Assembly: GCA_001797615.1 (NCBI GenBank)
Contig: MGPV01000042.1
Coordinates: forward strand, 53,440 to 102,276
From: Deltaproteobacteria bacterium GWC2_65_14
GTDB lineage: Bacteria; Desulfobacterota; Deferrimicrobia; Deferrimicrobiales; Deferrimicrobiaceae
Direction: 5' to 3'
DNA: 48,837 bases
The first letter of the stretch is position 1. Every line of letters starts with the position of its first letter. Positions 6,863-9,885 of the stretch are shown here, in pieces. A model generated the notes under the pieces. The model was given only the letters and a program-made list of their open reading frames with translations. It had not been told where the DNA came from and searched no databases. Position numbers and translations under genes: made by a program.

Positions 6863-7600
6863 TCACCGGATCCTGTGGCGGAGCGACTCGGCGAACATCG
6901 GGTAGGAGCGGGCCAGCAGGGGGATCTGGGCGCGCAGCAGCGACAGATCGGCGGGGGAAGGAGCGGGGGTCGCTGGAACATCCGCCGGCGCGAGCGGAAA
7001 TCCGGTCTCCCGCTGCGCTTCCTCGAACGGCACGCCGGGGTGCAGGGAGAAGAGGCGCCATTCGCCGGGGCCCGGGTCGTACTCCATCGTGCAGAGGGGG
7101 GTGACCAGCCGCGTCGGGCCACCGCGGCGCCAGGGGTAGCCGGGGCTGCTTCCCGCCGAGGTGACGAAATCGCACCGCTCCACGAAGACCCGGGGGCTGT
7201 GGGAGAGCGCGAACAGGACGACGCGGCGGGTCATGTAGTAGAGCATCGCGGAGCCTGCCCCTCCCGGAAGGCGGACCTTCGGGGCCTCGTATTCCCCGAT
7301 GCAGGTGAGGTTGAGGTTCCCCTTGCGGTCGATCTGCGCCCCGGAGAGGAAGAAGAGGTCGAGCTTCCCCCGCTGGGCGAGATCGAACAGCTCCCTGGAC
7401 CCATCGGTCACGGGGGTTTCGTCCGATCCGAGAAAGAGGAACTTCCCCCGGGGGGCATGCGAGGCGCGGGCATGCAGCGCGCCCAGCAGCGGAACGGGGG
7501 AGAGGGTCCCCACCGCCGTCCTCTCCAGGTCGCGGACCTCCCGGGACAGCTGGAAAGCCAGGAACTCCTCCTGCGTGCATCCCTCGAGGGAAACGGGCAT
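6863..7600 (-). CDS. CoA-transferase family I, subunit B (glutaconate CoA-transferase-like)
   Basis: Probable beta subunit of a two-subunit CoA-transferase that moves CoA between carboxylic acids. 245 residues. Family features are the N-terminal EFLAFQLSREVRDLERTAVG, then the segment with GKLDLFFLSGAQIDRKGNLN and GGAGSAMLYYMTRR, which fit the GctB/IpdB-like branch (PF01144) better than the ScoB/AtoA branch. ATG 7600 lies five bases after the stop of the A subunit. Substrate cannot be told from sequence; glutaconate, succinate or ring-degradation acyl-CoA types share this look. The C-terminal part is Pro- and Ala-rich. Confidence 0.85.
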   Translation of the reverse strand: MPVSLEGCTQEEFLAFQLSREVRDLERTAVGTLSPVPLLGALHARASHAPRGKFLFLGSDETPVTDGSRELFDLAQRGKLDLFFLSGAQIDRKGNLNLTCIGEYEAPKVRLPGGAGSAMLYYMTRRVVLFALSHSPRVFVERCDFVTSAGSSPGYPWRRGGPTRLVTPLCTMEYDPGPGEWRLFSLHPGVPFEEAQRETGFPLAPADVPATPAPSPADLSLLRAQIPLLARSYPMFAESLRHRIR

Positions 7601-7605
7601 GGCGG

Positions 7606-8454
7606 TCAGGCCGCCTTCCCGCAGGCCAGCTCGAGGTACTCCTCTTCGGTCTTCCCGAGGACGAACCGCGCGAGATATTCCCGGAACCCCTCTTCGGTCT
7701 TCGCGGCGGCGAGGTACTGCTGGACGTGATCCCGGTCGATTTCATACGTATGGACGCAGGCGGCGGGGTGGGCGCCGCGGGGCGCAACGACCACCGTGTC
7801 GATGTGCAGGGCGGAGAGGTAGATCTCCCCCGGGCGGGCGACGAGCGACTCCGCCGGAACGACCTCCTCGACGGTCACGACGGCCCGTTTCGCCGCCAGG
7901 ACGGCCAGCCGGTCCGACTCCAGGGCGGAGCAGACGACGTTTCCGTTCCCGTCCGCCCGGATCGCGTGGATCACCGCCCAGTCGGGCCGGATCGGCGGGA
8001 CGACGAAGATCTCCTTTCCGGTGTAGGGGTCCGTCACCTTCCGGAAATCCTCCCGGACCTTCTCGTAGTCGGTCCCGGCGAACCCGAGCATCGGGTGGAA
8101 CGGCAATCCGGAGGCTCCAGCCTGGAGCCCTGCGAGGATCCCGGGTCAGGAGTGCTCCCGCGGCCGGATCCTCCCGGACTCGACCGCCCGGCGGAAGTTC
8201 GGGGCCATTCCGAACTCCCCCATCGAGATCTGGGGAAACTCGACCGAGCGGACCGCCCCCGCGCCGACCAGCATGTCGACGTTGATCCCTCCGATCGGGA
8301 TGACCACGAGATCGAGGTCGGAGGTTCCCTGCCGGATCAGCTCCCGCACGAAGGCCATCGGGCTCATGACCATCGCACCCCCGACGGCCACCTTCGACCC
8401 GGAGGGGATGGCGGAGGCCGCCTCGGACAGAGAGAGGAATTGCGCCTGGTTCAT
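7606..8454 (-). CDS. CoA-transferase family I, subunit A, with one in-frame TGA: candidate selenoprotein or nonsense mutation
   Basis: Alpha subunit partner of the following gene. From ATG 8454 the frame gives 102 residues (SGSKVAVGGAMVMSPMAFVR, EFGMAPNFRRAVESGRIR), then TGA at 8148-8146, then continues in the same frame for 179 residues with family sequence (GLPFHPMLGFAGTDYEKVRE, VVCSALESDRLAVLAAKRAV) to a TGA at 7608-7606. Read through, the product is 282 residues, a normal length, with the TGA as residue 103 in the context REHS-stop-PGILAGLQAG. There is no other stop or frameshift. A perfect 7-bp hairpin lies 17 bases after the TGA with its loop at base 24, as bacterial SECIS elements require. 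Selenocysteine is therefore a serious option; a recent nonsense mutation or a base-call error are the alternatives. AAGGAG before the ATG is a good ribosome site. Confidence 0.75.
8113..8129 (-). promoter_or_regulatory. SECIS-like hairpin after the in-frame TGA
   Basis: On the minus strand GGCTCCA, loop GGC, TGGAGCC: seven perfect base pairs. The loop starts 24 bases after the TGA (8148-8146), within the 16-37 base window used for bacterial SECIS elements, and has G at its first two positions. It also encodes family-like residues (GLQAGAS), so coding constraint alone might produce it. Confidence 0.45.
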
Positions 8455-8479: not shown

Positions 8480-8566
8480 TGGTGCCCGGGGAGAGGATCG
8501 AACTCTCATGGCCTTTCGGCCACGGGATTTTAAGTCCCGTGCGTCTGCCAGTTCCGCCACCCGGGC
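8480..8566 (-). tRNA. tRNA-Leu (anticodon TAA)
   Basis: Minus-strand gene with acceptor GCCCGGG pairing with CCCGGGC, discriminator A and encoded CCA. The anticodon loop CTTAAAA gives TAA. The long class II variable arm (TGGCCGAAAGGCCA) is typical of leucine tRNA. It lies 87 bases downstream of tRNA-Cys and 25 bases upstream of the CoA-transferase A start, all on the same strand. Confidence 0.97.
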
Positions 8567-8653
8567 ATTCCCACCTGCAAGATAGCACAGTTCCCGGATC
8601 GGAAAGAGACCCGGTCCGCAACGCGGCCGGCGCGGGGTCGTGGAAAAGGAGGA

Positions 8654-8728
8654 TGGAGGCGGCACCCGGATTCGAACCGGGGGATAAAGGATTTGCAGTC
8701 CTCTGCCTTACCGCTTGGCTATGCCGCC
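8654..8728 (-). tRNA. tRNA-Cys (anticodon GCA)
   Basis: Minus-strand gene; acceptor GGCGGCA pairs with TGCCGCC, discriminator T, encoded CCA. The anticodon loop CTGCAAA gives GCA. The T arm CCCGG-TTCGAAT-CCGGG is standard. First gene of the probable unit tRNA-Cys, tRNA-Leu, CoA-transferase A and B. Confidence 0.97.
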
Positions 8729-8901: not shown

Positions 8902-9885
8902 GTGGGAGATTCCTTCTACATCACGGGAGTCGCCGGGTTCATCGGTTCCCACGTGGCGGAAAGACTCCTTCGGCGGGGCGACCGGGTCCACGGCCTGGAC
9001 AACTTCGATCCGTTCTACGACCGGTCCATGAAGGAGGGGAACCTCGCCTCCCTGTCGGTCTTCCCGGAGTTCCGCTTCACCGAGGGGGATATCCGGGACC
9101 GGGCCGTCCTGGCGGAATGGGGGAATCCGGGACCCGTGGATGTGGTTATCCATCTCGCCGCGAAGGCCGGGGTCCGTCCGTCGCTGCGCGACCCGGTCGG
9201 ATATGCCGATGTGAACGTGCTGGGAACGGCCCGGCTTCTCGAGTGGGCGAGGCACCGCGGCGTCCCCCGGATCCTGTTCGCCTCCTCGTCCTCGGTGTAT
9301 GGAGGAAACCGGAAGGTTCCGTTCGCCGAGGAGGATCCCGTGGACCACCCGGTGAGCCCCTACGCCGCGACGAAGAAGGCGGGCGAGCTTCTGTGCCACA
9401 CCTTCTGCCACCTGTACGGGATGAACATCGTCTCCCTGCGGTTCTTCACCGTCTACGGGCCGAGGCAGCGCCCGGAGATGGCGATCCACGCCTTCACCCG
9501 CAGCCTCTTCGAGGGGCGGGAGCTGCCGATGTTCGGAGACGGCGGCTCCCGGAGGGACTACACCTACATCGACGACGTCGTGGACGGGGTCCTCGGCGCG
9601 CTTTCCGCTCCGCCGGGGTACCGGGTCTACAACCTCGGAGAGTCGTCCACCATCTCCCTGGACGACCTGGTCGCCCTGCTGGAGCGGAGCACCGGGATCC
9701 GGGCGACGCGGAAGTATCTGCCGCCGGAGCCGGGGGATGTCCCGGTGACCTTCGCCGACATCTCGAGGGCCCGGGCCGAGATCGGGTATGCCCCCAAGGT
9801 GCCGGTGGAAGAGGGGGTGCGGCGGTTTGTCGAATGGTACCGGAACGACGCAGGACAATTCCAAGCCGGAGGAGGAGGCCGATGA
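8902..9885 (+). CDS. NAD-dependent sugar-nucleotide epimerase (UDP-glucose/UDP-glucuronate 4-epimerase type)
   Basis: Extended short-chain dehydrogenase/reductase acting on nucleotide sugars for surface polysaccharides. GTG 8902 is set by GGAGG five bases upstream and gives 327 residues. The Rossmann motif ITGVAGFIGSHVAERLL starts the protein; the active site shows SSSSVYG and YAATKKAGE (Tyr-x3-Lys); RFFTVYGPRQRPEMA and GDGGSRRDYTYIDDVVDG are typical of the UDP-glucuronate 4-epimerase (LpsL/CapI) branch. The exact substrate is not certain. An in-frame extension upstream lacks a ribosome site and crosses the predicted promoter. The stop overlaps the ATG of fbp (ATGA), so gluconeogenesis and sugar-nucleotide supply are coupled. 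Confidence 0.9.
   Translation: MGDSFYITGVAGFIGSHVAERLLRRGDRVHGLDNFDPFYDRSMKEGNLASLSVFPEFRFTEGDIRDRAVLAEWGNPGPVDVVIHLAAKAGVRPSLRDPVGYADVNVLGTARLLEWARHRGVPRILFASSSSVYGGNRKVPFAEEDPVDHPVSPYAATKKAGELLCHTFCHLYGMNIVSLRFFTVYGPRQRPEMAIHAFTRSLFEGRELPMFGDGGSRRDYTYIDDVVDGVLGALSAPPGYRVYNLGESSTISLDDLVALLERSTGIRATRKYLPPEPGDVPVTFADISRARAEIGYAPKVPVEEGVRRFVEWYRNDAGQFQAGGGGR

Follow-up and report, generated by a model that had tools for sequence, protein, structure and literature searches.

Analysis of a 48,837-nucleotide stretch of DNA from Deltaproteobacteria bacterium GWC2_65_14 (hereafter the window) revealed what is almost certainly a new family of selenocysteine-containing proteins, absent from published catalogues, in which the catalytic residue is inferred to have been relocated from one subunit to its partner. 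We hold with high confidence that the protein is a genuine selenoprotein with Sec103 at the catalytic column, although there is no protein, 75Se or mass-spectrometry evidence. A preliminary description of the locus had read the internal TGA as selenocysteine, and all of the computational tests that it proposed proved favorable to that reading. It had also stated that no established selenoprotein was known in the CoA-transferase family. Indeed, no CoA-transferase-fold protein is found among the 119 prokaryotic selenoprotein families of a May 2026 inventory (PMC13188914) or in the deep-Sep paper (PMC12013277), and NCBIfam 20.0 contains no specific model. No selenocysteine-containing CoA-transferase was found in the literature, although the possibility that one has been mentioned before is not entirely ruled out. 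With bacterial selenoproteins such as FdhA, SelD and others, the protein shares an in-frame TGA, a SECIS-type hairpin, cysteine homologues and the sel genes. It differs from the 119 listed families in its fold, for which no selenoprotein is listed, and represents an additional selenoprotein family.

Locus and reading frame

The coordinates of the relevant features are listed in Table 1. The reading frame of subunit A lies on the minus strand, where an ATG at 8454, preceded by AAGGAG approximately 10 bases to its 5' side, opens the frame, and a terminal TGA at 7608..7606 closes it. Of the 282 sense positions, only codon 103 is a TGA, in the context EHS-U-PG when TGA is translated as U (MNQAQFLSL...EHSUPGILAGLQAG...CGKAA, 282 residues). 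The preliminary description had reported this TGA within an otherwise clean 282-codon frame that was coding on both sides. Both statements hold, with the strand now assigned as minus. The two halves of the protein form one Pfam domain, CoA_trans, which extends from residue 8 to residue 222 and spans the TGA. In seven pairwise comparisons, dN/dS ranges from 0.12 to 0.27 before and after the TGA alike, and as judged from these ratios purifying selection is acting equally on both sides of it. Subunit B, a second CoA_trans protein, begins 5 bases past the stop codon of subunit A.

Table 1. Features of the selenocysteine locus (window coordinates).
Feature	Position	Strand	Support
Subunit A, read through the internal TGA, putative Sec103	7606..8454	-	Pfam CoA_trans 1.2e-22; pLDDT 94.3; equal dN/dS on either side
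TGA codon 103, read as selenocysteine	8146..8148	-	TGA in 49 genomes; Cys in ~50 homologues
Bacterial SECIS-type hairpin	8113..8129	-	Pairing kept; compensatory changes; unpaired in Cys homologues
Subunit B, PF01144, without the catalytic Glu of class I CoA-transferases	6863..7600	-	Pfam and alignment

Directly upstream of the A/B pair, and on the same strand, are genes for tRNA-Leu(TAA) and tRNA-Cys(GCA) at 8480-8728. From position 9882 onward, on the plus strand, the first residues of a putative archaeal-type fructose-1,6-bisphosphate aldolase/phosphatase can be recognized, albeit by eye only.

The internal TGA codon and its decoding

When the read-through protein was used as the query against 59 related genomes, 15 further homologues were recovered, 41-83% identical, each of which carries exactly one in-frame TGA, in the identical alignment column. 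Wider searches consisted of a scan of 84,980 genomes, a survey of 395 genomes of the same phylum, and a survey of 95 genomes of a second phylum, namely that of a Rokubacteria locus. The TGA form was observed in 22 of the 395 genomes, and an in-frame TGA in 21 of the 95. In 49 distinct genomes the TGA was verified at the exact column. They belong to the Thermodesulfobacteriota (Syntrophales, Desulfarculaceae and Desulfobaccales), the Rokubacteria, the Bacillota (Dethiobacter) and the Chloroflexota. The same column is occupied by cysteine in approximately 50 relatives (Alphaproteobacteria, Paenibacillus, Aquificota and others), by glutamate in 10 IpdA-like relatives, and by asparagine in more distant, ordinary CoA-transferase paralogues. 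Tryptophan, arginine and serine, any of which would have counted against selenocysteine according to the preliminary description, are not found there among the aligned relatives.

Automatic gene callers report an ORF of 102 amino acids and a separate one downstream, as if codon 103 were a real stop followed by a second start. Such a split gene, a pseudogene and a sequencing error have nonetheless been rejected, and we attach next to no likelihood to any of them, given that the same TGA occurs in 49 genomes from several phyla, that dN/dS remains low downstream, that cysteine or glutamate is aligned with the codon in relatives, and that the predicted fold is intact over the joint. The recurrence of the TGA in itself excludes a misread TGG or TGC, the error that had originally been considered. 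In dozens of genomes, automatic annotation would break subunit A into two pieces. Two of the homologous loci (L135 and L174) contain a second in-frame TGA approximately 200 columns past the selenocysteine codon, within the aligned tail, where it may either mark the actual end of the frame or be recoded as well.

With the T of the TGA numbered as base 1, the downstream hairpin is composed of one stem strand at bases 20-26 (GGCTCCA, 8129..8123), a GGC loop at bases 27-29 (8122..8120), and the second stem strand at bases 30-36 (TGGAGCC, 8119..8113). The perfect 7-bp stem and the placement of the loop, 24 bases past the TGA, are as previously described. In this GC-rich gene, however, a 7-bp hairpin arises somewhere within the allowed range in 32% of synonymous-codon resamplings, and the single sequence is thus not decisive, whereas the exact set of seven pairs is reproduced in only 0.6%. 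Because a chance hairpin of this length is not rare in a single sequence, reliance was placed on the alignment. In the alignment of 41 distinct TGA genes, 92% of the cells for the seven stem pairs retain pairing, and 20 cells show two-sided compensatory changes. The second pair, for example, changes from GC to CG and AU. The covariation score of 0.300 was reached by none of 500 shuffles (0.129, sd 0.015), and pairing falls to 31-53% when the partner strand is slid. Other measures from the shuffles are weaker, with 28 of 500 for the pairs showing two-sided change, and with the number of extra pair types not above chance (244 of 500). The outermost pair is broken in 12 of the 41 sequences and the innermost in 9. 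The hairpin lies at a fixed distance from the TGA, and its GGC loop is invariant in every TGA sequence, thereby meeting the bSECIS criterion that the first or second base of the loop be a G. In the TGA forms, 96% of these positions are paired, versus 49% in the cysteine forms, the latter being close to that of the slid registers even though much of the peptide is shared. As far as alignments can tell, it is this conservation and covariation in relatives, rather than the single sequence, that lift the hairpin above chance. A scan of the window with Rfam returned only the tRNAs; we know of no general bacterial SECIS model in that collection.

The machinery required for selenocysteine incorporation, which the preliminary description had suggested looking for, is present in its entirety in the same genome: SelA (564 bits), SelB (292 bits, over its cut-off), tRNA-Sec, the product of selC (74 bits, over its cut-off), and two selD genes (L143 and L144). 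Each selD gene itself contains an in-frame TGA with a similar hairpin, G-rich at its apex, downstream. With these two genes, the genome would encode two or more selenoproteins besides subunit A. For 31 other genomes carrying the TGA form, SelB scored over the cut-off in 27 and tRNA-Sec in 24, with at least one of the two in all 31. SelB reached the cut-off in only 9 of 22 genomes with the cysteine form, and two Paenibacillus genomes with that form have neither SelB nor tRNA-Sec.

Transfer RNAs that read UGA as cysteine exist in some bacteria, and the possibility that an unusual tRNA inserts cysteine, or a residue other than selenocysteine, at codon 103 must be considered. The complete selenocysteine machinery, the two TGA-bearing selD genes with their similar hairpins, the confinement of the covarying SECIS-type hairpin to the TGA forms, and the fact that none of the TGA genomes tested lacks both selB and tRNA-Sec all speak against it, and we consider it very improbable. 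Decoding of UGA-103 as selenocysteine by SelB and tRNA-Sec, by way of the hairpin 24 nucleotides downstream, is strongly supported.

Residue 103 and the missing glutamate of subunit B

The AlphaFold2 model of subunit A consists of one continuous domain with a mean pLDDT of 94.3, and residue 103 opens a helix that extends to residue 115. Its fold matches are AibA, GctA and IpdA. In the alignment, the selenocysteine column corresponds to E in PDB entry 6co6 and to A in entry 6coj. As the title of the latter is that of the IpdAB E105A COCHEA-CoA complex, Sec103 can be equated with Glu105 of IpdA. The catalytic glutamate motif of subunit B is found in all six partners of asparagine-type A subunits versus none of the 69 partners of selenocysteine-, cysteine- or glutamate-type A subunits. 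It is absent from the B subunit in the window and from all 26 selenocysteine-type B subunits examined. The comparison establishes, at the level of sequence, both the column equivalence of residue 103 and the loss of the glutamate in subunit B. On these two grounds the catalytic role seems to have moved from the glutamate of subunit B to residue 103 of subunit A, which became selenocysteine, though the takeover itself is an inference.

On a tree, the asparagine, glutamate and cysteine types separate, selenocysteine groups with one of the cysteine groups, and there are seven changes in total at the column. The tree was calculated by a quick method with several forks left open, and it does not settle the direction of change between cysteine and selenocysteine. 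The series of asparagine, glutamate, cysteine and selenocysteine at one column, coupled with the loss of the partner glutamate, allows direct tests of how a catalytic residue passes from one subunit to the other and of the contribution made by selenium.

Of the systems with known structures, IpdAB, the COCHEA-CoA hydrolase (PDB entries 6co6, 6co9, 6coj and 6con), has the same fold (TM 0.88-0.89), and it likewise lacks the catalytic glutamate in B and carries its functional residue, Glu105, at the selenocysteine column of A. It differs in having glutamate there rather than selenocysteine and in its 29% identity, and its steroid-ring substrate is not expected for the selenocysteine enzyme. The IpdAB pattern, Glu105 in A with no catalytic glutamate in B, is thus matched only in the second respect. 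AibA of the 3-methylglutaconyl-CoA decarboxylase AibA/AibB (PDB entries 5mzw-5n03) is the best PDB match for subunit A in both sequence and fold. Here, too, the catalytic glutamate of B is replaced, by Cys56 at the same position (PMC7756340). The selenocysteine enzyme does not conform to this arrangement, however, for its B subunit has neither glutamate nor a conserved cysteine near the site, and its reactive residue lies in A, at a column where AibA has glycine in the alignment.

Glutaconate CoA-transferase, GctAB (PDB entry 1poi), shares the fold and the α/β subunit pair, and the PF01144 domain with A and B encoded together is in keeping with a class I CoA-transferase. The resemblance might suggest an ordinary CoA-transferase, in which an anhydride on the glutamate of B moves CoA between carboxylic acids and the selenocysteine is merely accessory. 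That glutamate, Glu54 of GctB (PMC5380842), is the catalytic residue of the class, yet not one of the selenocysteine-type B subunits examined has it, and classic CoA-transferase paralogues within the TGA-form genomes have asparagine at the selenocysteine column. Moreover, IpdAB, which also lacks the anhydride-forming β-subunit glutamate, shows no CoA-transferase activity (PMC5380842). We accordingly regard an ordinary CoA-transferase as quite improbable. The name given to the protein in the preliminary description, CoA-transferase subunit A, is apt with respect to the fold and the A/B layout but not with respect to the catalytic glutamate of the class, which its partner lacks.

Possible chemistry and genomic context

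In the mechanism inferred to be most likely, an acyl-CoA or 3-oxoacyl-CoA bound in the A/B cleft would be attacked or deprotonated by the selenolate with which the active-site helix begins. The outcome would be either an acyl-selenoester or an IpdAB-like hydrolytic cleavage of a C-C or thioester bond. An acyl-transfer or hydrolase role for Sec103, as opposed to thiol-redox chemistry, is inferred from the column equivalence with IpdA, and we give it an even chance of being correct. The same balanced judgment applies to the broader proposal of a non-redox selenoenzyme, in which the selenolate would replace the migrated carboxylate, either forming an acyl-selenoester or serving as a base on acyl-CoA, the column having switched among asparagine, glutamate, cysteine and selenocysteine as the glutamate of B vanished. 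Given that the residue in IpdAB is a carboxylate, the chemistry of the selenocysteine could be different. To our knowledge, selenoproteins outside redox chemistry are thought to be few, and here the selenocysteine is placed where acyl-CoA catalysis happens.

Sec103 might instead serve a redox function, forming a selenenylsulfide with CoA-SH or Cys233 or reducing CoA disulfide, given that most selenoproteins of known function are redox enzymes (PMC13188914). Cys233 is present in 31 of 40 selenocysteine forms, so that redox chemistry with a local cysteine is not fully excluded, and one Desulfobaccales locus has, just upstream, a Nudix protein that scores over the cut-off for CoA pyrophosphatase, homologues of which are likewise placed in four more loci. 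On the other hand, there is no UxxC or CxxU motif, Cys233 is missing in 9 of the 40 selenocysteine forms and in most cysteine forms, and the column is occupied in the glutamate relatives by a catalytic carboxylate, which is incapable of redox chemistry. Neither the A nor the B alignment contains an invariant second cysteine, which disfavors a dithiol role. A redox function is thus considered unlikely.

Comparison of the gene neighborhoods across groups did not name a substrate for the proposed acyl-CoA chemistry. Subunit B is the only constant neighbor of subunit A, the others varying from group to group. They include Liv-type transporters in close relatives, an AMP-ligase and acyl-CoA dehydrogenase together with a TRAP transporter in the Desulfarculaceae, and, in the Desulfobaccales, a Nudix gene of the CoA pyrophosphatase family just upstream of the selenocysteine subunit (8850-9461 in L154, with homologues in L155, L156, L158 and L159). 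The cysteine forms are accompanied by a type III CoA-transferase or by methylmalonyl-CoA mutase with MeaB. In L071 (by annotation) and L075 (by homology), the latter two genes and the cysteine-type pair apparently form an operon, which could hint at the substrate class. Finally, a second CoA-transferase-like A/B pair adjoins the selenocysteine pair in L160 (2228-5888), where an amidohydrolase gene and one resembling enoyl-CoA hydratase also occur.
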